From Candidatus Phascolarctobacterium caballi (GTDB lineage Bacteria; Bacillota; Negativicutes; Acidaminococcales; Acidaminococcaceae): a stretch of DNA of 40,132 nt. Of the stretch, positions 14,203-28,465 are shown one piece after another. The stretch lies in contig JAGHTS010000059.1 of assembly GCA_018065225.1 (NCBI GenBank), positions 1-40,132 on the forward strand, read 5' to 3'. The position numbers and the translations under genes were made by a program. The notes beneath the pieces were generated by a model. That model saw only the letters and a program-made list of their open reading frames with translations. It did not search any database and was not told the DNA's origin. Position 1 is the stretch's first letter. Each line of letters starts with the position of its first letter.

Positions 14203-14629
14203 CGACCTGATAGGTATTCCATTTGTGGGCGGTGGCCGTGACCCCAATAAAGGGTTAGATTGCTACGGATTAGTGATGGAAGTATTCCGCAGATATGGTT
14301 ACGAACTGCCGGAATACACGGACGCAGTCAGGGAATGGAATAACGAGAAAAGGTGTCATGAATTTTATACCGAACAAAAATCACGGTACTGGAAGGAAAT
14401 TAAGAACCCTACAGTACCGTGTTTAATTGCTTTTTCGTTTAATGTTCCACGTGGAACGGTCAACCATAGCGGTGTCTATATCGGCGATGGCAAATTTATT
14501 CACACAAGGGAACGGGTGGGGGCTTGCATAGAGTCAATTAACAACCCTGCGTGGAGAAGATTGATAGAGGGATATTATGAGTGCACGATTAACGGTAGTA
14601 AGGAATCCAATAATACCGGAAAAGAATAG
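14183..14629 (+). CDS. Tail tip NlpC/P60 peptidase, lambda K-like
   Basis: This 148-residue protein has the NlpC/P60 cysteine nucleophile in GLDCYGL (Cys27), the histidine in VNHSGVYIGDG (His95) and a further FIHTRE. This fold cleaves peptidoglycan stem peptides, and in tails it probably opens the cell wall during DNA entry. I chose the ATG at 14183, which overlaps the preceding gene, because residues encoded upstream of it do not belong to the family. It overlaps the J-like gene by 53 bases. Lambda K also carries a JAB domain, which is absent here. Confidence 0.85.
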   Translation: MYLKKIDDLIGIPFVGGGRDPNKGLDCYGLVMEVFRRYGYELPEYTDAVREWNNEKRCHEFYTEQKSRYWKEIKNPTVPCLIAFSFNVPRGTVNHSGVYIGDGKFIHTRERVGACIESINNPAWRRLIEGYYECTINGSKESNNTGKE

Positions 14630-17600
14630 ATATGTTGGAGAGTTCCCGTTCAAGACCATAGGCGAGGCAAGAGCATGGCTGGACGGACAGGAAGTTAATA
14701 TCACCGTTGATAACTGGCTTGTTACAGATGATTATGAACCAAAAACAGGGGAAATGGTCTTGATAATGCCTGTCATTGGTAAGGGCGGTGGAAAATCCGT
14801 CTTTGGTGTTGTGGCAATGGTGGCATTGGCGGTAGTTTCTCATGGTATTGCAACAGGCGGATGGTTGGCTGGTGCCGGTATTGCTGCAGGCACTACGGCG
14901 GCTTATGGAATTGCGGCAGCCACATTGTTCATTGGCGGTACCTTGATAAGCAGGTCGATGACCAGTGGTGCCAAAGCGGATGTCGGTAGGCACGATTACG
15001 AGAATAACGCAACCTATTCTTGGGGCGACCCACAGACAATGGAAGGTCAGAATAATGCCATAGCCGAAACCTATGGTAAGGTTCAAAGTGCAGGTCAAAC
15101 ACTGGGAAAATTCGTTTCTTTAAGTGGTAATGACGAAGTATTGAATTGGCTGGTGGGATGCGGTAAGGGCGAGTTGGATATTACCGATATCAAACTGAAC
15201 GACAACCCCATTGAGTATTACAAAAATATTTCCTGCGAAATTCGTAGGGGAACAAATGACCAAGAAATAATTAGTAATTTCAACGATACCTATTTTACCG
15301 AAAATGTGTCCGCATTAATGAGCGGTAGTACACCAGTTGTAAGACAGGCACAAGGAACTGCAACAGAGGGATTGATATATAAGATTTCCTGTGATCAAGG
15401 CCTGTATTATGCCAATGATGACGGGGGATTAAGTACAGCGTGGGTAAGAATTCAAATGGATTACCGGTTGCACGCTGCACCCGGCGAAGAAGAGAATCCG
15501 TGGACAGTTTGGCAAACGGTTCAGATATCAGGAGCACAGAATAACGCTCTGCGTAGAGAATACAGATTGGACAATCTCCCTGCAGGTCAATACGATATCC
15601 GGACAACCTGCGTGGGGCGTTCCCATAGTGAATCAAGCTCACGTGCAGGGGTTAAGGTATGGCTTAATTCCATAACCAGTATTGTTTATGATGATTTTGT
15701 GTATCCGGGCATTGCCCTAATAGGAATTAAGGGATTAGCCACAGACCAGCTGAATGGTTCCCCGACAATTAAATTCATTAAAGAGCGAAAATTCATTTGG
15801 GCGTACAATCCTAACACAGGCATGTACGAAGAGCAACCTGCCAATAATCCGGCATGGGCGGCTTATGACATGTTGCATCAAGCCCAAAAGGTAATGAATA
15901 TTAACACCGGGAAATATGAATTTGTTTTTCGGGGTGTTGACAAAAACCATATTCTATACGACCAGTTCAAGGAATGGGGTGACTGGTGTGAAGATATGGA
16001 TTTGCACATCAATCTTGAGATTTGCGAAACAGGGGAAATGCTTGACCTGATTAACAGCAAGATTGCTTGTATTGGTCGTGGGTTGGTTATTAGATTTGGC
16101 ACCCGTTATGGGGCTAAATGGTCACACGCTCAAAACCCGGTTCAGATGTTCGGCATGGGCAATATAGTCAAAGATACCTTTGAGGAAAGTTTCCTGAGTA
16201 TTGATGACCGGGCGAATGCGGTGGAGATAACATTCACGGATGCCGAAAGGGATTACCAACGCCGGACAATCACCGTATTTGGGGAAAATTACAATACGGA
16301 TGCCACAGAAAAGGTTGCACAGGCAACATACGATGGGATTACCAGTTATGAGCAGGCCTTCCGTGAGGGTATGTATCAGCTGGCATGCAACAAATATTTA
16401 TTGCGGACGGTGTCTTTTGACGCTGACGTGGACAGTATTGCTTGTACGGTTGGTGACGTTATTGTAGTTTCCCATGACATTGTACAGGCGGCTTATTCAG
16501 GAAGAATAAGTAAGGTGGTAGGACGTGTGGTTACGTTACCAACCGTTGACCCGGTGGACACAACCCAAAGCTATAAACTCATGTACAGGTCGAGCGAACA
16601 CGACACATTGGAAGAATATGACGTGTCCGTGGCATATAACGAGAATAACGAATTAGAGGCAACCATATTAGGCGAGATTGACCCCGACCCTGCACCTGCA
16701 GTCAATGATATATATGATTTGGCACTGGTGACAATGGGGCGGAGAATGTTTACAATTCAAAGCATTACAAGGTCAAGCGAGTTTCGGCGTCACATTGAGG
16801 CGTTGGAATATAACGCTCAGGTCTATTCCGAAGATTACGATATTCCTGAAATAGAATACAGCAGAGGCGGTGACGTGGCACAGAATGTTACAGGTCTTTC
16901 TTGTGCTCAAGTTGCCTATGTCCGCAAGGACGGAACGCGGGCAAGCCAACTCAATGTGTCGTGGGTAGAGGCGGTGGGCGGTGGTCACTACAACGTCTAT
17001 ATCAGTACCAACGGTAAGGATTGGACACCAATAGCAACTAACACCAGTAAGGTTCAGGTCAAAGCTGACGTTCAACCGTGGACAACCTATTATGTTAAGG
17101 TTGTAACTATATTGGGCGTTAGTCAAAGTAGTGGGGTTGTTGAATATCCTGTTCCGCCGGGAGATGATGTCTTACCGCCGAATGTTCTACAGCTTGATTG
17201 TGAGGTACTGAAGGACGGGACAAGGAGATACCATTGGGATTTCAATTATCCTGAACCAAATGATATTGCCGGGTTCAAAATGAAATATTGTCATGGTACG
17301 GGAGGTAACTGGAACATTGCGGACGATGTTCAAGACGGGTTGATAACAGCCCAACCATACGAGGCAAAGACAATCCGACAGGGTACACATACCATATTCA
17401 TTAAAGCGGTAGATAACGCAGGGCAGGAATCACCATTGCCGGCAACCTGCATAATCAATTTCGGAAAACCTTTGGAAGAGAATGTTTTGGAAACCAAAGA
17501 TTTCAGCGAAAACGGTTGGGGAGAACTGAATTTTGGCGAATTTTGGGATGAAGATGAAAATAAAGAGTTTTGGAACCCCAACGAAGAAACAGATTTTTGG

Positions 17601-18236
17601 GTAAATCATTCACACAACGGAACAGCAAGAGGTTGTTATGTTGGAGCAGACAACAAGATTTATACAGATACTACCGATAGTTATTGGGCTAACCCCGGCG
17701 ACAATAAATGGACGGGCGAAGACGACTACGAATGGACAGCACAATATTGTGACTTCTATGTAGATTTCACGCACGTAGCACAGGCAAGCGGTTATTGGTG
17801 GTTGGATTATGAGATTTCCGGGACTTTCAATATTTATTATTGGATTAACAACGATGGCATTAAGAAACAGTACAACACAAGAATTAAAGTTAATGCCGGG
17901 GATGTTATCCACATAAGTGTTGAGGGAACCGCAAATATGATTATTGTCAGTTCGCTGGTGTCGATTATTGATGTTCCCGACCGGGTAGAACACTTTGAAA
18001 GCATCGATATCAGCAGTGAGGGGACAGAACTGCCGATAAAGACACCAAACTACAAGACAATTACAGTTCATTTGGACAGCTTACCGCTGGAGAACAACGA
18101 AGAGGTCTATTTGGAAGAAATCAGTAAGGAACCATCAATAATCAGATTACGCAAAAAAGATGGAACACCGATAACTGCAACAGCCAAGAGAATCACTTGG
18201 CAGGGATACGAAAGAGAGGTTATTAGCAATGGCTGA
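14577..18236 (+). CDS. Central tail tip protein, lambda J-like with I-like N-terminus
   Basis: This 1219-residue protein starts with an I-like region holding a Gly/Ala-rich hydrophobic hairpin (about residues 65-120, AMVALAVVSHGIATGG and AAATLFIGGTLIS). The J-like body follows, with YSWGDPQT and ETYGKVQSAG motifs, a hub domain around residues 400-750, and fibronectin III-like segments near residues 780-960 (LNVSWVEAVGGGHYNVYIS and WTTYYVKVV). The C-terminal 250 residues are Trp/Asp/Asn-rich and may reach the receptor. In lambda, J determines adsorption. The stop overlaps the next gene by eight bases. Confidence 0.9.
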   Translation: MSARLTVVRNPIIPEKNRYVGEFPFKTIGEARAWLDGQEVNITVDNWLVTDDYEPKTGEMVLIMPVIGKGGGKSVFGVVAMVALAVVSHGIATGGWLAGAGIAAGTTAAYGIAAATLFIGGTLISRSMTSGAKADVGRHDYENNATYSWGDPQTMEGQNNAIAETYGKVQSAGQTLGKFVSLSGNDEVLNWLVGCGKGELDITDIKLNDNPIEYYKNISCEIRRGTNDQEIISNFNDTYFTENVSALMSGSTPVVRQAQGTATEGLIYKISCDQGLYYANDDGGLSTAWVRIQMDYRLHAAPGEEENPWTVWQTVQISGAQNNALRREYRLDNLPAGQYDIRTTCVGRSHSESSSRAGVKVWLNSITSIVYDDFVYPGIALIGIKGLATDQLNGSPTIKFIKERKFIWAYNPNTGMYEEQPANNPAWAAYDMLHQAQKVMNINTGKYEFVFRGVDKNHILYDQFKEWGDWCEDMDLHINLEICETGEMLDLINSKIACIGRGLVIRFGTRYGAKWSHAQNPVQMFGMGNIVKDTFEESFLSIDDRANAVEITFTDAERDYQRRTITVFGENYNTDATEKVAQATYDGITSYEQAFREGMYQLACNKYLLRTVSFDADVDSIACTVGDVIVVSHDIVQAAYSGRISKVVGRVVTLPTVDPVDTTQSYKLMYRSSEHDTLEEYDVSVAYNENNELEATILGEIDPDPAPAVNDIYDLALVTMGRRMFTIQSITRSSEFRRHIEALEYNAQVYSEDYDIPEIEYSRGGDVAQNVTGLSCAQVAYVRKDGTRASQLNVSWVEAVGGGHYNVYISTNGKDWTPIATNTSKVQVKADVQPWTTYYVKVVTILGVSQSSGVVEYPVPPGDDVLPPNVLQLDCEVLKDGTRRYHWDFNYPEPNDIAGFKMKYCHGTGGNWNIADDVQDGLITAQPYEAKTIRQGTHTIFIKAVDNAGQESPLPATCIINFGKPLEENVLETKDFSENGWGELNFGEFWDEDENKEFWNPNEETDFWVNHSHNGTARGCYVGADNKIYTDTTDSYWANPGDNKWTGEDDYEWTAQYCDFYVDFTHVAQASGYWWLDYEISGTFNIYYWINNDGIKKQYNTRIKVNAGDVIHISVEGTANMIIVSSLVSIIDVPDRVEHFESIDISSEGTELPIKTPNYKTITVHLDSLPLENNEEVYLEEISKEPSIIRLRKKDGTPITATAKRITWQGYEREVISNG

Positions 18237-19056
18237 AAGGTCGCTTAAATTTAGTAATTACAATAAGTACAACGATACTACCCAAGGCCAGTACCAAGAG
18301 TATAGCCGGAATCAGAATAGTATTGTGACCGAAATGGCAGAGGCACTATTGTGGCAACCTTCCACAATGTACTCTGCCGGGCAGGTATGTATGTCCACCA
18401 AAATACCAAAAGGGAAATGGGCGGTATGTTCAGTTGCGGGCACCAGCGGGCAGGAAGAACCTGATAACTGGGATTCTACCACCCAAGACGGAACTGTAAC
18501 GTGGGTAATAAGGCCAATATCCGTGGTGGTGGACGGTTCAATTATTCAGGGCGGAACAAACCCTGTAACCGCGGCAGCCATTTATTTGGCTTTGTCGGGG
18601 AAACAGAATATAGCTGACCCTGCGGCACTGGCCATAGCGGACAGGAACGGTAATGAGATTAACTTTACAGGGGCAGGCATTAAATTAGTTTTGGGAAATA
18701 CTGCTGTTGCTCGTGCAATAGCAGATAAAGACGGTAATCCTATTGACGGTATTGTGGATGAAGAGCTGGACGGAGAAAGTACCCACGCAATACAAAATAA
18801 GGCGGTCTATGAGGCGATTGGTGCAGATGGGTTTCAGTTTACTGCCAGTCAACAAGCGGCTTTGACATATCAAGCGGCTTATGGTGGCGGAATCAACTAT
18901 TTATATACTCAAACAGGGTTGCCGGAACAGAAGGCGACCCTAAAAACCATAGTCCAAAAGCTGATTAACTTGAGCCATAGTCACACATTGGGGTCTTGGA
19001 ACTGCAACTGTAATTGTGACTGTGACTGCACATGTGACTGTTCAGGGGGGGAATAA
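18229..19056 (+). CDS. Tail fibre-like protein with alternating-cysteine C-terminus
   Basis: This 275-residue protein has a virion-attachment-like N-terminus, then a module WQPSTMYSAGQVCMS followed by CSVAGTSGQEEP (about residues 42-75) that is related to repeats in the fibre at 20910, a GNEINFTGAG/DKDGNPIDG middle and a coiled region. Its last residues read WNCNCNCDCDCTCDCSGGE, with cysteines at every second position from 259 to 271. Such an end is unlike structural fibre tips. It could bind metal or be a substrate of the radical SAM enzyme encoded two genes downstream. The modification is inference. Confidence 0.75.
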   Translation: MAERSLKFSNYNKYNDTTQGQYQEYSRNQNSIVTEMAEALLWQPSTMYSAGQVCMSTKIPKGKWAVCSVAGTSGQEEPDNWDSTTQDGTVTWVIRPISVVVDGSIIQGGTNPVTAAAIYLALSGKQNIADPAALAIADRNGNEINFTGAGIKLVLGNTAVARAIADKDGNPIDGIVDEELDGESTHAIQNKAVYEAIGADGFQFTASQQAALTYQAAYGGGINYLYTQTGLPEQKATLKTIVQKLINLSHSHTLGSWNCNCNCDCDCTCDCSGGE

Positions 19057-19821
19057 ATGAAGGTTTTTTATAAAAATGACAAAACGCAAAGACAATTAGG
19101 TTTTGAAAACAGTGGTGGCAAACTGACAGCCACTATGTATGTTCAGGAAGAAATCAAACAGGATGACAAAACCAAGATTGTTGAAAAGGTTGCTTTTTCA
19201 AAAACGTGGGAAATTGCAGAGTTATACAAGTTACGAACCAATTCCAATAATTTTACGGTAAAGGTATATTTTAATGATACCGCATTTACAAAAGTTATTC
19301 ACATTATGCCATCACGGGACAACATGAAGGAATATTGCAAGAATATGATTGTATCGGAGAATGGTGGACAGTCCAAAGGTATTGCGTTCTCGGTGTTCTT
19401 CAATGGCCCGGTTGATTGTTGCGTAGTAGTCAACAATTTCACTGTTAAACAATCAGCAGGAATTGAACTTGTAAAGAGTGATAACCCTGACAGGTCAGCA
19501 TTCCAATATTACCCTAATTTTTTGAATAACATGAAAAGGTTCAAAGCGAAACAAGAATTGCTGGCAAAGCTGGATTGCAACGATTCACTTTGTGGCAACG
19601 AGGCACAGGTCGATATCTTAACCAAGATTGTTAAGGCATTGGTGGAGCTGAACCCGGACAGGACAATTAGGGAAAAGGTGCCTGAACTGGATGCCTTCTT
19701 TGAGGCGGTGGACAGCACCAGTGTGCTGACCTTAAAAACCACCACTAAAGCCATTCAGGACATGAAAAAGCAAAAGGAGAATATAAGATATGCCCAACAG
19801 GAATATTTCCAAAACAAATAA
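19057..19821 (+). CDS. Unknown protein between the Cys-tail fibre and the radical SAM enzyme
   Basis: This 254-residue protein starts directly after the preceding stop, with a G-rich ribosome site. It has a beta-rich N-terminal half containing VAFSKTWEIAELYKL and FTVKVYFNDTAF, a CCVVV strand, and a helical Lys-rich C-terminal third (NFLNNMKRFKAKQELLAKL, AIQDMKKQKENIRY). It overlaps the radical SAM gene by 32 bases, so the three genes are co-translated. I recognise no family. It might be a virion protein, a fibre chaperone, or a partner that presents substrate. Confidence 0.6.
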   Translation: MKVFYKNDKTQRQLGFENSGGKLTATMYVQEEIKQDDKTKIVEKVAFSKTWEIAELYKLRTNSNNFTVKVYFNDTAFTKVIHIMPSRDNMKEYCKNMIVSENGGQSKGIAFSVFFNGPVDCCVVVNNFTVKQSAGIELVKSDNPDRSAFQYYPNFLNNMKRFKAKQELLAKLDCNDSLCGNEAQVDILTKIVKALVELNPDRTIREKVPELDAFFEAVDSTSVLTLKTTTKAIQDMKKQKENIRYAQQEYFQNK

Positions 19822-20899
19822 AGTTATTAAGATTTTTTTGGGTTCTGCCTGCAACTTCCAGTGTAAATATTGTGTGCAAACCAAAATAGCACAGGAAGTC
19901 CACACACAGCAGGATTTCTCGAAAATAAAAAAGTTTCTTATTGACGAACAGCCGGACAGAGTGTTGTTGTGGGGTGGGGAGCCCCTTTTGTTTTGGGAAA
20001 CATTTAAGGCCATAGCAGAATTTGTGGCTGAAAATTGCCCCAAAGCCGATATTATCACCATAACCAACGGTTCGTTGCTGACTATGGATAAAGTAGAATT
20101 TATCAATAAGTACAATATCGGCATAGGCCTGAGCAATGACGGAAGGCACACTATCAAGACCCGGAACAAGAATGTATTAGAAGATATGCATATTCTTGAT
20201 TGTTTTTTGGGAATAAAGCACAAAGGCATTTGCACGGTACTGACCCCCCTAAACTTTGACATTTACAAAGATATTTGGGGTTATTTTGACGAAGTGCTTA
20301 TGGGCGAAAGGGTCAATGTCAATATAGACCCGGTTAAGAATTGCACAGGGTTGGATATGTTTATTCCCTCTGATTCAGATATGGAAGTGCTGAAAAAGTC
20401 CGTCCATATTATGGGGGATAAATTTGTGGAGTCCATTCAAAAAGGCGACTACAACAGCAGGGAATATATCTTTTTTGAACGGATTATTAGCCACATTAAA
20501 CGAGGTATTTTTGACAGGGAAGATTTAAGCCCTCGTCTTTTGTGCGGTCACGGTCACAATATTATGACCATTGATTTACAGGGAAATATTTTTACCTGCA
20601 ACAATTCCGGCATAATCGTTGGAACCGTGGCAGACAAAGACAAAGCCAATGCCGAAATCAACAAAAGGGTTATCCCAGATAAAAAGTGTATGGAATGTCC
20701 ATACCTTAACATCTGCATACCCGGAACCTGCACCCTGATAACCAAAGATGAAAGGGAGCAGGAATGCCGGATAAGGAAGGTGTTTTACAAGGAATTGATT
20801 TCCCGATTATTCCAATTGGGTGCAAATGGTATTTTGGACGCAACCGCACCCAAACAGGCAAATCTTGACAGGGAAATGTGCCTGTATTCTATGACATAG
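19790..20899 (+). CDS. Radical SAM/SPASM enzyme in the tail-fibre operon
   Basis: This 369-residue protein has the SAM-cleaving cluster motif CNFQCKYC (Cys21, 25, 28), a WGGEP motif (residues 61-65) and a SPASM-type C-terminal domain with cysteines at 252, 270, 300, 303, 309, 314 and 326, enough for auxiliary Fe-S clusters. Enzymes of this layout install thioether, C-C or other crosslinks in peptides, or mature enzymes. No separate precursor peptide gene is visible nearby, but a protein with a seven-cysteine tail lies two genes upstream. It starts inside the preceding gene and ends ten bases before the shufflon fibre, so it belongs to the late operon. Confidence 0.92.
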   Translation: MPNRNISKTNKVIKIFLGSACNFQCKYCVQTKIAQEVHTQQDFSKIKKFLIDEQPDRVLLWGGEPLLFWETFKAIAEFVAENCPKADIITITNGSLLTMDKVEFINKYNIGIGLSNDGRHTIKTRNKNVLEDMHILDCFLGIKHKGICTVLTPLNFDIYKDIWGYFDEVLMGERVNVNIDPVKNCTGLDMFIPSDSDMEVLKKSVHIMGDKFVESIQKGDYNSREYIFFERIISHIKRGIFDREDLSPRLLCGHGHNIMTIDLQGNIFTCNNSGIIVGTVADKDKANAEINKRVIPDKKCMECPYLNICIPGTCTLITKDEREQECRIRKVFYKELISRLFQLGANGILDATAPKQANLDREMCLYSMT

Positions 20900-20909
20900 G
20901 AGATATAAA

Positions 20910-21902
20910 ATGGCAACACAATTACTTAATTACGATAATTTTACAAGGTTACAACATCCAAAAGAAAAAGAATTATCTGATTATTTTAAAAATCAAAATA
21001 TTGTGCTGGGTGAAGTTCAAAACGATGTTGAGAGTATGAAAACAGGCAAAGCGGACGCAACTAACCTAACCGACCACATCGAAGACGAAGGTAACCCCCA
21101 TAACGTTACCGCTCACCAAGTGGGAACTTTGACCGCCAGCGAAATCATAGAGGCAACGGGAATGCTTATGCGTTCTACCACATATATGGTAGGCGATATT
21201 TGTAAGGTTTCTTTATTGCCTAACAATTTCTATGTGGAATGTACCCAAGCAGGCACAACCAGTTCCACAGAGCCAACCTACACCCCTGTGCTTAATTCAG
21301 AGGTACTGGACGGAACAGCAAAATTTAAGGTGTACCGTTACGCGAACACCACAGAATTAGGTTTTATTCTGCGGAATACAGCGTATGTTGTTGGTGATGC
21401 CTGTTTTTCGGTTCAACTGCAACACAATATGACTTTGGTCTGCACCCAAGCAGGGACAACAGCAGGAACTGAACCGACAATAACCAACCCCGTAATGGGT
21501 ATGGTAATTTCGGACGGCACAGCCAAATTCACGATTAAGCCAACGGTGGCTGAATATTGCAACACCCAACCCACAACAACCAGTACCGCTTCCCCGTATA
21601 AACCAGTGGTCTGTATAGAGAATTATTACGATGAAGAAACGGGCGACTGGTATAGAAAGTACAGCGACGGTTTTATAGAACAGGGTGGGAGAATTGCTGC
21701 CGGTAGTGACAAACAATACACCGGAACATTCCTTATTCCTTTTTCTAATATTAATTACCAAATTTGTTATAGGGGCGTAGCAAGGAATAGTAATACAACT
21801 GCCACCCAATGGCAATGGATTGAAATTAACGCTATCTCTACTACCAGTTTTTGGGCAAAACAAATAAATTTCTACCGTGATTGGTATGCGTGTGGTTATT
21901 AG
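20910..21902 (+). CDS. Tail fibre adhesin, expressed allele of the shufflon
   Basis: This 330-residue fibre has an N-terminal attachment part, a fibre motif HIEDEGNPHNVTAHQVG (residues 56-72), and two related modules (about 85-141 and 152-209) sharing TTYMVGD/TAYVVGD, CTQAGTT-EPT and DGTAKF. A conserved lead-in WYRKYSDGFIEQGG follows. From Gln258 on, the sequence is the variable tip (73 residues), with LIPF in the core and WYACGY at the end, resembling gp53-like fibre C-terminal domains. The switch point CAGGGTGG is at 21681-21688. AGGAG lies before the ATG. Nine alternative tips follow downstream. Confidence 0.9.
   Translation: MATQLLNYDNFTRLQHPKEKELSDYFKNQNIVLGEVQNDVESMKTGKADATNLTDHIEDEGNPHNVTAHQVGTLTASEIIEATGMLMRSTTYMVGDICKVSLLPNNFYVECTQAGTTSSTEPTYTPVLNSEVLDGTAKFKVYRYANTTELGFILRNTAYVVGDACFSVQLQHNMTLVCTQAGTTAGTEPTITNPVMGMVISDGTAKFTIKPTVAEYCNTQPTTTSTASPYKPVVCIENYYDEETGDWYRKYSDGFIEQGGRIAAGSDKQYTGTFLIPFSNINYQICYRGVARNSNTTATQWQWIEINAISTTSFWAKQINFYRDWYACGY
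21681..21688 (+). repeat. Shufflon site 0 (expression site)
   Basis: CAGGGTGG encodes the first codons of Gln-Gly-Gly in the expressed fibre. The left side (ATAGAA) does not continue the palindrome, so only one outward-facing half-site is present, as expected for the outer boundary of the array. Confidence 0.85.
21681..21902 (+). other. Shufflon cassette C0 (currently expressed tip)
   Basis: This is the 3' part of the fibre gene, encoding 73 residues from QGGRIAAGSD to WYACGY. It converges on cassette C1, and the TAG stop (21900-21902) overlaps the C1 stop on the other strand. C0 and C1 form the first invertible segment. Confidence 0.85.
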
Positions 21903-22135
21903 TAACCATAAGCTATCCAATAACCAAAGACATTACGAGCGTCAGCCCCTCTTACTATACCTATATGCATAAACCCAGTGGTTGTTACAGACCCATTTTC
22001 CAATCCGGGTTCATAACTATCTGACGAAGTACCGCCACAATCTCCGAGCATGACAACTGGAGTTTTTTGAAACGGCAATATAAAACTAACTTGATGCCGA
22101 GTGTCACTTGCTTGTGTTCCAATTTTACCACCCTG
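21899..22135 (-). other. Silent shufflon cassette C1
   Basis: This open frame encodes 78 residues, beginning QGGKIGTQASD and ending GYWIAYGY, with ILPF in the core. It has no start codon or ribosome site and begins exactly at the CAGGGTGG of site 1. Inversion between sites 0 and 1 would place it in frame behind the constant fibre region. Confidence 0.88.
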
Positions 22136-22147
22136 CTATCAGGGTGG
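22128..22147. repeat. Shufflon site 1
   Basis: CCACCCTG-CTAT-CAGGGTGG is a perfect palindrome of two 8-base half-sites with a 4-base core. Each half starts the reading frame of the cassette leading away from it (C1 left, C2 right). Confidence 0.92.
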
Positions 22148-22388
22148 TATTTTAACCCCAAGCACTTGGGTAAGAATAGGAATTGGCAATTACAAAATAA
22201 CATTTCTTGTTCCTATGAACAACGTTGTTTTAGCACAAGGAACAGTTAAACAAACCGTAGCAGTTCCTTTTGGTTGGGCTGCTTTCGGTACAGTTACAAA
22301 TGTTAGTATTATTTTTACGCTTATGACAGTTGCAAATAGTTCAAGCGACCAATCAAATAATCTTTGGTGGCGAGTTTGTGGTTATTAG
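22140..22388 (+). other. Silent shufflon cassette C2
   Basis: This frame encodes 82 residues, beginning QGGILTPSTW and ending WWRVCGY, with FLVPM in the core. No start codon or ribosome site lies at its beginning. The stop overlaps that of C3. To be expressed it would need nested or successive inversions. Confidence 0.88.
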
Positions 22389-22609
22389 TAACCACAAGCG
22401 TAGTACCCCCTGCTGACCGCAGAAACAGGTACTGCCCTAAAAGAGGACGCAGATACTGCATAGATTTGGAGTTGCCACCATCCGGGGTTTGTTGTATATG
22501 AAGTTACATCTTGACCCAAATATCCTATTTTATATTTTGCGTTTTTGAACGGAACAAGCAATGTTCCGTCATAATATTGACTGGCGATGCCCGGTATCTT
22601 ACCACCCTG
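22385..22609 (-). other. Silent shufflon cassette C3
   Basis: This frame encodes 74 residues, beginning QGGKIPGIAS and ending RGYYACGY, with LLVPF in the core. It starts at site 2 and converges on C2. Confidence 0.88.
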
Positions 22610-22621
22610 ATAGCAGGGTGG
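22602..22621. repeat. Shufflon site 2
   Basis: CCACCCTG-ATAG-CAGGGTGG has the same arms as site 1 with the core reversed (ATAG instead of CTAT). Confidence 0.92.
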
Positions 22622-22823
22622 GTACTCAATAGGTGAAGGCAGTAAAAACTTGATTGTCCCATTCCAAAAAAGTTATGTTGCTGTAATTAGTGCTGTTGCA
22701 AGCGGTGATGTAAGATACGAAATCAAATTAGGAACAATAACATTGACTACTTTTAATGTTGTATATCATAGGTCTTCAACATCAGTAACTTGTAATTTTA
22801 ATTGGGTTGCTTATGGGTACTAA
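22614..22823 (+). other. Silent shufflon cassette C4
   Basis: This frame encodes 69 residues, beginning QGGYSIGEGS and ending NWVAYGY, with LIVPF in the core. It is the shortest tip. It overlaps C5 by four bases at the convergent stops. Confidence 0.88.
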
Positions 22824-23041
22824 TAACCGCAGCATCCCCATGTAACTAACTTATTGCTAACAGTAGTTCCCAAAGTAGCTACATATGAGCTTCCCTTAAA
22901 ATTTGTAAATGTTTTACTGTTTAAGGTTATTGAAAAAGGGCATGCCCCTTCAACAGCACCATACACCAAATATTTGGTAGCGGTAAAAGGTATAATAAGG
23001 GTAATTAAAGTACCTTCCTTAATATTGCTAATACCACCCTG
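22820..23041 (-). other. Silent shufflon cassette C5
   Basis: This frame encodes 73 residues, beginning QGGISNIKEG and ending VTWGCCGY, with LIIPF in the core. It starts at site 3. Confidence 0.88.
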
Positions 23042-23053
23042 ATAGCAGGGTGG
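23034..23053. repeat. Shufflon site 3
   Basis: CCACCCTG-ATAG-CAGGGTGG is identical to site 2 across all 20 bases. Confidence 0.92.
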
Positions 23054-23267
23054 TAAATTTAACAAGGCAGGTTTAGTTACAATTGTCTTGATTGTTAGCT
23101 TTTCTAACGTCAACTATTTTTTAAGTTGCGTACCAAGATATAGCGACCATTCAATATCCGCCCCGTTTGGAAGATTAGGTTTTAATAAAACGACAACAAC
23201 TTTCCAAAACGGAGCATCAACAACAAGTGGCGGTGTTCCCACAGATTGGTATGCTTGTGGTTTTTAA
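23046..23267 (+). other. Silent shufflon cassette C6
   Basis: This frame encodes 73 residues, beginning QGGKFNKAGL and ending DWYACGF. It is the only tip that lacks the Pro-Phe core pair (VSFSNVNY instead) and that ends in GF instead of GY. The frame is nevertheless intact. Confidence 0.88.
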
Positions 23268-23476
23268 TAACCGCAACAGCACCACCAATTTTGTGAAGCA
23301 AGATCAGATACACCAGCAATGCTAATTGCGGTATTCGTTTTCGCCAAACCGCCAATATTGCAATTGTGGGCTCCCAACGCAGTCCCTGATAACGCAGAAT
23401 AATTGTTGTGCAAGAATGGCATTAAAAAAGTTATGGTCTTAACTTGACCAGCATTTAGATATACACTACCACCCTG
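23264..23476 (-). other. Silent shufflon cassette C7
   Basis: This frame encodes 70 residues, beginning QGGSVYLNAG and ending NWWCCCGY, with FLMPF in the core. It starts at site 4 and its stop overlaps that of C6. Confidence 0.88.
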
Positions 23477-23488
23477 CTATCAGGGTGG
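23469..23488. repeat. Shufflon site 4
   Basis: CCACCCTG-CTAT-CAGGGTGG is identical to site 1 across all 20 bases. Confidence 0.92.
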
Positions 23489-23702
23489 GGTCATTTCGTA
23501 CAATGGTAGTAGTTCGGGAAATACATATCAATTTTTAACACCATTTTCAACAACCCATTTATATGTTGGTTGCACCTGCATAACAACTATGGATGCTTAT
23601 ATTGTTAGAAACATAACTCAAACTTCATTTATTGTCTCAGCAGGTACAAGAAATATTGGGTGGTTTGCCAACAATTTTATATGGTATGCGTCCGGTTATT
23701 GA
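23481..23702 (+). other. Silent shufflon cassette C8
   Basis: This frame encodes 73 residues, beginning QGGVISYNGS and ending IWYASGY, with LTPF in the core. The stop overlaps the end of C9. Confidence 0.88.
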
Positions 23703-23926
23703 TATCCACAAGCATAATACGAAACTATTCCTGTATTCTCGTCTTGATAATAAGTAAAACCGGTTCCGGTTCGTTTTTGCGGCACCCAATTAACAGAAGT
23801 CATACTTCCGCTCCAACCGTTTTCTATAGAGTAACAAAACAGCAAAGAATAATTATTATTGGAGAACGGGACAAGAAAAGTCAACGTGTAATATGTACGT
23901 CCAATGACAGGTCTGTACCCACCCTG
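23696..23926 (-). other. Silent shufflon cassette C9
   Basis: This frame encodes 76 residues, beginning QGGYRPVIGR and ending YYACGYQ. It has one residue beyond the usual terminal Gly-Tyr. The core reads FLVPFSNNNY, close to the expressed C0 (FLIPFSNINY). Confidence 0.88.
23919..23926 (-). repeat. Shufflon site 5 (distal boundary)
   Basis: This is a single CAGGGTGG half-site on the minus strand, preceded by AAGAG rather than a second arm. It marks the far end of the array, mirroring the single half-site at 21681. Confidence 0.82.
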
Positions 23927-23935
23927 CTCTTAATC

Positions 23936-23970
23936 AAATTTCAGTCGATTTAGAAAGTCGCTTGAAATTT
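23936..23970. other. Long hairpin at the distal end of the shufflon
   Basis: A near-perfect 16-pair inverted repeat (23936-23951 with 23955-23970, one mismatch and two G-T pairs in RNA) with a three-base loop lies just outside site 5. No T-run follows on the plus strand. It may limit readthrough, protect mRNA, or help position recombinase. Confidence 0.55.
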
Positions 23971-24491: not shown

Positions 24492-24514
24492 CAATATTAC
24501 CGGAGGTGGTAAAA

Positions 24515-25540
24515 ATGAAGTTACCGAACGGCTTTGGAAGTGTTACTAAATTAAGCGGAAACCGGAGAAAACCTTTTGCGGTTAGAAAGTGGATGTCGGG
24601 CAAACAGATTTATGCCGGAAGTTTCGAAACTTACGAACTTGCCATTGCGTACCTTATCAATTCCCAAAAGAGCCATAGTGCCATTGGCATTAAGAGAATG
24701 ACCTTTATTGAGGTGTACCGGCAAATGGCGGCAGAAAAATATGGCGACCTTGCGGAAAACAGTGTCAAGAATTATGAGGCGGCACTAAGGCATTGCGAAT
24801 TACTTTTTAATAAGCCCTTATGTGAAATTAAATTATCAGACCTGCAAAAGGTAATTTCCCAAATGGATGCCCAAAAGATAGGGTACGCAAGCCAAAGGAA
24901 ATGCCGGTCTTTATTCCACAATGTCTATGGCTACGCAATTAAGTATGAGATTGTGGACGTGGACTATTCCCAGTGGGTGGAGATTTGCAAAAGGGTGGTA
25001 TTGCACCCCAAGAAACCTTTTAACCGGCGGCAGCTCAACAGGGTTATTGCATTAGCTGAAGGGGATGGAGCGTTGGCACGGTGGGCAAAGTGTGTTGTTA
25101 TGCTTTGCTACAATGGATGCAGGGCAGGGGAATTTTTGAGCATAAAGAAAACAGACGTAAAATTGGGGCAAAAATTCTTTATTGTCCGGGAAAGCAAAAC
25201 TGAATCAGGGCGAAACAGGATTGTTCCCATTCATAAAAAATTATTACCTTATTATCAATGGTGGTATGAACAAGAGGGCTCAACCCTGATAAGCGAGAAC
25301 GGGGAACCGGTAACATATCAGCGGTTCAAAGCTCTTTTTGACAGGGTAATGAAAATAAGCCATTGCCACCACAGCCCCCATGAATGCCGCCATACTTTGG
25401 CAACATGGCTGGACGATGCCGGAGCAAATGAAGTTGCTACCAAAAAGATACTTGGCCACAGCGTGAAGGGAATAACCAAAGGTGTTTATACCCACAAGAA
25501 CCTGCACGAACTGAGAAAGGCAATAAACAAGGTAAAATAG
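24515..25540 (+). CDS. Tyrosine recombinase, probable shufflon invertase
   Basis: This 341-residue protein has an N-terminal arm-binding-like domain (GFGSVTKLSGNRRKPFAVRKW), a SAM-like core-binding domain, and the full tyrosine recombinase set: Arg203 (NGCRAGE), Lys228, His289 and Arg292 (HECRH), His315 (GHS) and Tyr325. GGAGGTG before the ATG at 24515 decides the start. A second recombinase with an attP beside it (27365-28465) accounts for lysogeny, so this one most likely inverts the fibre cassettes 0.6 kb upstream, as Rci does in plasmid R64. It ends in a strong terminator. Confidence 0.85.
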   Translation: MKLPNGFGSVTKLSGNRRKPFAVRKWMSGKQIYAGSFETYELAIAYLINSQKSHSAIGIKRMTFIEVYRQMAAEKYGDLAENSVKNYEAALRHCELLFNKPLCEIKLSDLQKVISQMDAQKIGYASQRKCRSLFHNVYGYAIKYEIVDVDYSQWVEICKRVVLHPKKPFNRRQLNRVIALAEGDGALARWAKCVVMLCYNGCRAGEFLSIKKTDVKLGQKFFIVRESKTESGRNRIVPIHKKLLPYYQWWYEQEGSTLISENGEPVTYQRFKALFDRVMKISHCHHSPHECRHTLATWLDDAGANEVATKKILGHSVKGITKGVYTHKNLHELRKAINKVK

Positions 25541-27364: not shown

Positions 27365-28465
27365 CTATAATTTATTCAACAAGTCAAGTGTACTTTTGTC
27401 CATTTCGGGGGTGTGCTTAACGTATTTATTTAATGTCATGGCGACGGTGGAATGACCGAGTTTCGCCTGTATTTTTTTTGGGTTAATGTCATTCTCCGCT
27501 AAATAAGTTGCCACAGTAGCACGCAGGGAATGAAAGGTCATTTCGTCCGGGAAACCTAATACTTTACGTGCATCGCAAAAAGCACGGCTTAACGAATTGG
27601 GCATAAGAAAACCGCCTGTGCGAGATTGAAACACAAATGAATCAGGATTTATTTTTTTATTTTTTTCTTTATTAAAAGAAATCTGCTCTTGTAATAATTT
27701 TTTCATAACAGGGGGGATGGCGATTGCACGGATAGAGCTTTTGGTTTTCAATGAACCGACAATCCATTGACCATTATAAACCTTAATGCCACGTTCTACT
27801 ACAATATAATTTTCGTCCAAGCGCAAGTCCTTTATTTGCAGACCGCAGATTTCGCCGCGTCGCATTCCTGTGTTCCGGGCAAAGCGGAAAATTCTTTTCA
27901 TTTGCTGGCTGGGAATTGCATCCAACAAAATATCAAATTCCTCTTTGGTAAGGGTCAACCGTTCTTTGCTTTCATACTTAGGTTTATCGATGAAGTCAAA
28001 AGGATTTTCTTTTATAACCTTTTCTTTCCATGCTTGATGGAAAACCGCTTTTAAAAACACATAGAGCATCTGCTTTGTCCGCCTGCCGTCAACCGCCGCT
28101 TTCGGCTTAAAAGATAACAAAAATTGACGACTTGCAGGAACATTGACGGTGTCCATTTTCATTCTGGAAAAATTAGTTCCGGCAATATAATTCTTGATTA
28201 GGCAATCGTAAGTGTCAAGGGTAGAAGTGCCCGGGTCATTCTCCCGCCGTGCTTTCATGTAGTAGTCAATGAACGAACCCACAGAATATACATTACGGGA
28301 CAACCCTGAATATTTTAGCATTAACTTATTGATTTTTTCAGTCAACTCCACTTGCGTATCTGCGTACACATGCTTGCTGAACGCTTCCCCTGTAATTCCG
28401 TCATACAAAGTAATTTTTCTTTCAAACCGCCCGTCAGGGCGCTTTTTTATTTTCGGCTTATTCAT
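27365..28465 (-). CDS. int: Phage integrase (tyrosine recombinase)
   Basis: This 366-residue enzyme has an N-terminal arm-binding domain (KKRPDGRFERKITLYDG), a core-binding domain and the catalytic residues Arg202 (TGMRRGE), His312 and Arg315 (HSLR), His338 (LGHS) and Tyr348. It integrates the phage at tRNA-Leu. It overlaps the repressor gene by four bases (minus strand), so both are transcribed together in the lysogen. The attP lies just beyond its 3' end. Confidence 0.95.
   Translation of the reverse strand: MNKPKIKKRPDGRFERKITLYDGITGEAFSKHVYADTQVELTEKINKLMLKYSGLSRNVYSVGSFIDYYMKARRENDPGTSTLDTYDCLIKNYIAGTNFSRMKMDTVNVPASRQFLLSFKPKAAVDGRRTKQMLYVFLKAVFHQAWKEKVIKENPFDFIDKPKYESKERLTLTKEEFDILLDAIPSQQMKRIFRFARNTGMRRGEICGLQIKDLRLDENYIVVERGIKVYNGQWIVGSLKTKSSIRAIAIPPVMKKLLQEQISFNKEKNKKINPDSFVFQSRTGGFLMPNSLSRAFCDARKVLGFPDEMTFHSLRATVATYLAENDINPKKIQAKLGHSTVAMTLNKYVKHTPEMDKSTLDLLNKL

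Follow-up and report, generated by a model that had tools for sequence, protein, structure and literature searches.

A radical SAM/SPASM enzyme paired with a cysteine array in a phage fibre module: a putative maturase of fibre tips

Peptide chemistry by radical SAM enzymes has been described for secreted natural products and for a few cofactors of enzymes, and the ranthipeptide and sactipeptide maturases form thioether cross-links on peptide precursors. Several described systems bear on the phage locus reported here. PapB, an enzyme with radical SAM and SPASM domains, targets Cys and Asp/Glu residues of a ribosomal peptide and accepts Cys-Xn-Asp with n from 0 to 6 (PMC9413430). CteB, the SCIFF maturase (PDB 5wgg), has a SPASM domain with one Aux I cysteine missing; at the open site of its Aux I, a cysteine of the substrate is bound (PMC6231123). 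In anSME the Aux I ligands are Cys255, 261, 276 and 330 (PMC6231123). Among viruses, pelagimyophages carry radical SAM cassettes near tail-fibre genes, in host-recognition clusters (PMC7029224), one T4-like marine virus has 12 radical SAM genes (PMC5332604), and phage radical SAM genes frequently appear in lists of auxiliary metabolic genes (PMC9301287, for example). Here we describe a phage radical SAM/SPASM enzyme encoded in a tail operon, close to a fibre-like protein that ends in an alternating cysteine array.

The fibre module and its radical SAM/SPASM enzyme

The window, that is, the whole stretch of 40,132 nucleotides that was analysed (contig JAGHTS010000059.1 of assembly GCA_018065225.1, Candidatus Phascolarctobacterium caballi, family Acidaminococcaceae), holds a near-complete temperate phage with genes for terminase, portal, capsid, head closure, tail tube and tape measure, as well as for L, NlpC/P60, J, integrases, endolysin and methyltransferases. 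A second copy of a 60-mer from the window end lies near the window start. The features discussed below are:

14577 to 18236, plus strand: J, the central tail protein (tip attachment protein), with which the fibre module begins (PHROG 31, E 1e-126)
18229 to 19056, plus strand: fibre-like protein of 275 aa with the C-terminal cysteine array; proposed substrate
18934 to 18999, plus strand: pre-array motif ATLKTIVQKLINLSHSHTLGSW, candidate enzyme-recognition segment (recurrent pattern before arrays)
19000 to 19041, plus strand: array of alternating cysteines, NCNCNCDCDCTCDC, with 7 Cys and followed by the last 4 residues of the protein (direct reading)
19057 to 19821, plus strand: companion protein of 254 aa, family unassigned, with an N-terminal beta region and a C-terminal helical region
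19790 to 20899, plus strand: radical SAM/SPASM enzyme of 369 aa, ATG start, intact (PHROG 1802 family)
19850 to 19873, plus strand: CX3CX2C radical SAM cluster motif, CNFQCKYC (invariant in 30 homologues)
20543 to 20767, plus strand: SPASM domain with seven cysteines, without the fourth anSME-type Aux I cysteine (invariant in 30 homologues)
20910 to 21902, plus strand: the fibre gene that follows, 330 aa, with a Gp53-like region at the C-terminus (weak PF21882, tail PHROGs)
24506 to 25540, plus strand, and 27365 to 28465, minus strand: the two tyrosine integrase genes of the window phage

The genes of the module are tightly packed. J overlaps the fibre-like gene by 8 nt, the latter joins the companion gene with zero gap, the companion gene overlaps the radical SAM gene by 32 nt, and 10 nt separate the radical SAM stop codon from the start of the next fibre gene. 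A preliminary description of this DNA had the enzyme co-translated with fibre genes, and the two overlaps, the gapless junction and the short spacing bear this out. J contains FNIII-A_GpJ (PF24801) and PF13550 domains, both above cut-off, and the adjacent genes examined around the array are tail or unassigned genes. The fibre-like protein and the downstream fibre have a repeated fibre domain in common (BLASTP E 2e-5), and both weakly match phrog_20658. Given this gene context and domain similarity, the array protein would be located in the virion.

The product of the radical SAM gene passes the cut-off for Pfam Radical_SAM (PF04055; 35.6 bits versus 29.5) and matches PHROG 1802 over residues 4-352 (E 3.6e-36), a family matched by 18 of 18 aligned homologues too. 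Its radical SAM motif consists of C21-X3-C25-X2-C28, with GGEP at residues 62-65, and the SPASM cysteines are C252, C270, C300, C303, C309, C314 and C326, in the pattern C-gap-GX4C-gap-CX2CX5CX4C-gap-C. The motif cysteines, GGEP and the SPASM cysteines do not vary in either of two alignments, one of 18 and one of 30 homologues; within a wider set of 125 family members, all seven SPASM cysteines are present in 117, and a Cys between SPASM Cys1 and Cys2 occurs in only 3. The AlphaFold model of the enzyme (pLDDT 83, pTM 0.84), compared with the PDB by Foldseek, matched CteB best (5wgg, E 8e-14), and also anSMEcpe, ChlB and TigE; the nearest solved enzymes are CteB, TigE and anSME. The intact ORF, the PF04055 match, the invariant cysteines and the model thus uphold the earlier view that the gene encodes a complete radical SAM enzyme with a seven-cysteine SPASM domain.

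The window enzyme passed none of the NCBIfam equivalog cut-offs. The nearest NCBIfam family is PapB (NF047865) for 18 of 18 members, the window enzyme scoring 80.9 bits against a cut-off of 340, and against TIGR03942 (anaerobic sulfatase maturase) it scored 40.2 bits, below the cut-off of 349.45. An RRE is absent from it: about 10 residues precede the core, and the CteB alignment begins at CteB residue 90. In a quick tree of 125 enzymes, a thinned set in which 86 are array-linked, the window enzyme was divergent (at most 28% identity to the others) and grouped, on a long branch, among the array-linked enzymes (SH-aLRT 84-88).

The companion protein has no match in Pfam, NCBIfam or PDB. Its conserved part is the C-terminal helical region, which carries the motifs NDSLxxxEAQVDxL and KxxxRxxQxxY. 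Homologues (E≤1e-4) mostly adjoin a radical SAM gene, including those in Achromobacter phages JWF and 2-1, both of them isolates. These two phages share the gene order of the window, with J, a small ORF, an array fibre fused to Hint, the companion and the radical SAM enzyme. An iterated companion profile reached only about 25 radical SAM loci, so the companion is not universal. Its model (pLDDT 63, poor in the N-terminal half) gave no informative match with Foldseek and VIA-align, the best hit being helical with Z 5.4. A role as adaptor or chaperone is our guess.

Downstream of the enzyme, the region 20910-23950 resembles a shufflon, with about nine alternative C-terminal segments of alternating orientation following the fibre gene 20910-21902. 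Most segments end in ...(A/C)CGY or a variant and begin near a PPCYQGG/QGG stretch, which is encoded by the palindromic repeat CCACCCTGCTATCAGGGTGG with arms up to 97-100% complementary. One of the two tyrosine integrases may serve this fibre shufflon, and the adjacent recombinase 24506-25540 may be the invertase.

The cysteine array and its pairing with the enzyme

The fibre-like protein ends in ...TLKTIVQKLINLSHSHTLGSW-NCNCNCDCDCTCDC-SGGE. Since TGC and TGT codons, as well as AAC and AAT codons, are mixed within the array, it is not a DNA microsatellite. Mixed synonymous cysteine codons were found in 94 of 145 arrays, which sets these arrays apart from perfect hexanucleotide microsatellites without a radical SAM gene. 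Among 129 non-redundant arrays the first X residue is Asn in 122 and the second in 116, and later X positions drift, with Asp, Ala, Lys, Val, Gln, Arg and Tyr among the residues. The same tail is carried by unrelated protein bodies, about 30 clusters of them (E<1e-5 and at least 50% coverage, giving 30 clusters), with the window body alone in its cluster; single-linkage clustering was dropped, as it merged nearly all bodies into one. Ahead of NCNC we observed the motif [A/G]GTYTLxxLLQxLVNxSHxH in 13 of 147 array contexts with otherwise unrelated bodies, in phages of Acidaminococcaceae, Sutterellaceae and Elusimicrobiota and in uncultured viruses. Arrays that are not terminal are followed by a Hint (PF05203, PF01079 or PF13403) or Peptidase_S74 (PF13884) domain. 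Both of these are self-cleaving classes; therefore, going by domain identity, every arrangement would yield a mature protein that ends in the array.

Two loci have very long arrays of the NCNCKCKCQCKC... type with 25-27 repeats (L290, 2924-3718; L298, 3811-4518), which precede a C-terminal region (Peptidase_S74 in L290) and lie about 6-7 kb from the enzyme. Two kinds of repeat proved to be decoys, with no radical SAM gene: arrays of the (DC)n type, whose first residue is D, and, in other members of the class, perfect AATTGT/AACTGT microsatellites. In six class genomes, perfect AATTGT, AACTGT or AACTGC repeats read NCNCNC in one frame, and no radical SAM gene is linked to them.

We analysed the linkage of array and enzyme in both directions. 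Starting from arrays in IMG/VR (N-starting, and either C-terminal or followed by Hint/S74), a homologous radical SAM gene was found on the same strand at 72 of 86 loci among the matches listed, a count that, like all linkage counts given here, is not one of independent cases because the samples contain near-copies of the same phage. All of the remaining 14 loci, again among the matches listed, have less than 4.5 kb of downstream sequence. All 59 genomes of the host family together yielded 9 array places, in 6 genomes, each about 3 kb or less from a radical SAM gene, and a control search of the same genomes with the reversed pattern gave 0 matches. One of the arrays (G006:C1:616) and its enzyme are on either side of the junction of a 3,057,042-bp contig that is taken here as circular.

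For the opposite direction, GTDB and IMG/VR were searched with the 18-member alignment, which was used as query because the window enzyme alone and J alone found zero relatives in viral contigs. Among 116 loci scoring at least 200 bits and having at least 4.5 kb of upstream sequence, 89 had arrays of at least four repeats and 11 had short arrays (100/116 with an array), and 16 had none; arrays were rare on the opposite strand. Where position was scored, the array gene was upstream of the enzyme in 169 of 181 loci, at a median distance of 1.4 kb. Two class-level radical SAM loci examined later, with no prior knowledge (L326 and L327), both have an array immediately upstream, and L327 shows the pre-array motif again. 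Of ten large upstream ORFs sampled, 8 match tail, tail-spike or tail-fibre families. Within the host family, homologues of the enzyme (26-32% identity) occur in other Acidaminococcaceae prophage tail operons, next to proteins that end in NCNCDCDC-type arrays or to CQxCQ-repeat proteins. The pairing was found in phages and prophages of Acidaminococcaceae, Beta- and Alphaproteobacteria, Elusimicrobiota, Desulfovibrionaceae and Verrucomicrobiota, and in many uncultured viruses.

The preliminary description had named homologues in unrelated pathways, with no link to tail genes, as evidence that would speak against it. Such homologues form a minority only, within the 16 loci without an array, several of which are chromosomal Variovorax, Ramlibacter or Sulfuritalea genes with no evident tail operon. 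Seven loci with enzyme relatives in Variovorax, Ramlibacter, Sulfuritalea and similar genomes have neither arrays nor evident tail genes; these relatives possibly serve a different, cellular use. Four fecal 'phage' contigs (H1-H3, H13) were rejected as family members, being bacterial SCIFF-type or other radical SAM loci, and were kept as outgroups only.

This minority outside tail operons, together with the listing of phage radical SAM genes as auxiliary metabolic genes, is what could be said for a moron or metabolic gene that came to lie in the tail operon by chance. That reading is strongly disfavoured, with hardly any probability left to it, by the linkage of enzyme and array across many phage groups in both search directions and by the translational coupling of the enzyme to the fibre module. 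Very improbable, too, is a role of the array proteins as free RiPPs of the phage, with bacteriocin-like or signalling activity, rather than as parts of fibres. Some array proteins are indeed only 65-120 aa long, sometimes three in tandem (L087, L104, L114), and the window tail weakly matches an NCBIfam family of Cys-rich bacteriocins (E 0.41). Most, however, lie in tail operons and are 200-650 aa long, and collagen-like or S74 fibre domains occur in some of them; the window protein has a domain in common with the next fibre; and the adjacent genes that were examined include neither a transporter nor a leader protease.

Some loci contain a second radical SAM enzyme. Across nine loci of Acidaminococcaceae prophages, CQxCQ-repeat proteins are found, as are an ORF of about 278 aa, a free-standing Hint-like ORF that shows no obvious catalytic Cys1, and an additional radical SAM enzyme, which makes up a clade of its own at 100% support. 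Separately, five loci of environmental phages have a second radical SAM/SPASM enzyme of about 335 aa near the array-linked one.

Proposed modification of the array

The enzyme is probably a dedicated maturase of the C-terminal cysteine array of the co-encoded fibre, acting through thioether cross-links at the tip. The parts of this proposal differ in strength: from the sequence data we strongly infer that the array is the substrate of the enzyme, and we suggest, with less certainty, the thioether chemistry, a position of the array at the distal end of the fibre, and a function in adhesion or in stabilizing the tip. The preliminary description had reasoned that a virion protein is the substrate; this is now strongly supported by a candidate, the NCNCNCDCDCTCDC tail, and by the two-way co-occurrence, and the array and the companion, both of which it had missed, are to be added. 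The chemical modification as such, and the hardening or tuning of an adhesin that it had also put forward, are predictions.

The proposed course of events is as follows. In late expression, the fibre-like protein 18229-19056, the 254-aa companion and the enzyme would be made together from their coupled genes. The enzyme, perhaps with the companion as adaptor, would recognize the segment just ahead of the array and, with SAM and its auxiliary Fe-S clusters, would cross-link the NCNCNCDCDCTCDC cysteines to residues nearby through thioether (S-C) bonds. This would lock the C-terminus covalently into a compact tip, and the fibre would then be built into the virion. Thioether cross-links are favoured because the Cys261 equivalent is absent, because CteB has an open Aux I site and because PapB tolerates a range of spacings; the PapB range puts spacings as short as those of the array within chemical reach. 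The variation among later X residues speaks against Asp or Asn as the strict acceptor at every site. Linkage to the alpha-carbon, or modification of the conserved NCNC head only, would fit the variable X better.

A cysteine-centred reaction that ignores X would likewise fit its variability beyond the first two sites, and anSMEcpe ranks near the top of the enzyme's matches in structure as well as in sequence. The array might thus be modified in another way, by conversion of cysteine to formylglycine as in anSME, by epimerization or by other C-C/C-X bonds. We regard this as unlikely. For the anSME-like version, the fourth Aux I cysteine (Cys261) is missing, with any Cys at this place in just 3/125 members, the anSME motif or consensus is absent from the window array, and TIGR03942 scores about 40 against about 349. 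Were formylglycine formed, the array would be one of aldehydes, a reactive, covalent adhesin.

Still less likely, to our mind, is an array that works unmodified, as a trimer tip that binds metal or Fe-S or is linked by disulfides, with the enzyme acting indirectly (for example, in metal loading) or on some other tail protein. In a trimeric tip, strands with alternating CxC could stack on one another, other phage spikes have HxH iron sites, and some SPASM enzymes have non-peptide substrates. Against it, we know of no requirement for a radical SAM enzyme in simple metal loading, the enzyme tracks the array and not any single tail protein body, and its nearest relatives are peptide maturases.

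Returning to thioether maturation, we lean towards a generalization of it, in which PHROG 1802-type enzymes put S-C cross-links on the C-terminal NC arrays of fibres and Hint/S74 cleavage, where it is needed, leaves the array terminal, as a widespread and undescribed class of post-translational modification in virions.

Comparison with known enzymes and systems

We found no description of the array-enzyme pairing, or of virion modification linked to a radical SAM enzyme, in the open-access literature searched. On our reading, radical SAM chemistry would here apparently be built into virus particles, as a RiPP-like modification of an adhesin tip, and the pairing would point to a widespread viral way of chemically finishing fibre tips. 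It would offer a function for the large uncharacterized phage family PHROG 1802, and maturases that work without a leader, on large proteins ending in a simple repeat, could be useful for protein cross-linking. The reading also makes a clear prediction for mass spectrometry of virions.

PHROG 1802, a phage 'radical SAM domain-containing protein' of the category other, is the same protein family as the window enzyme, and its description gives no function, substrate, array link, companion or tail context. The pelagimyophage cassettes lie near tail-fibre genes, and no substrate, array or modification was proposed for them (PMC7029224). Hint and Peptidase_S74 fibre-processing domains stand directly after the array in several relatives, whereas the window fibre has neither and its array is already C-terminal. 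The marks of a free-peptide RiPP cluster are a short precursor, a leader and a protease or transporter; here the array is on a 275-aa fibre-like protein.

Among the enzymes, anSMEcpe (4k36-4k39) is a close structural match of similar length that, like the window enzyme, has no RRE, and it modifies a cysteine in the precursor of a folded protein. Its Aux I, however, is fully ligated by four cysteines, and the phage family is without the second (the Cys261 equivalent). CteB is like the window enzyme in the missing Aux I cysteine, but has an N-terminal RRE domain of about 90 residues that the window enzyme does not have. PapB shares the combination of radical SAM and SPASM domains and is the best NCBIfam match; its substrate is a short PapA-like precursor with CX3D/E motifs, in contrast to the period-2 NC/DC array that ends the 275-aa fibre of the window phage.
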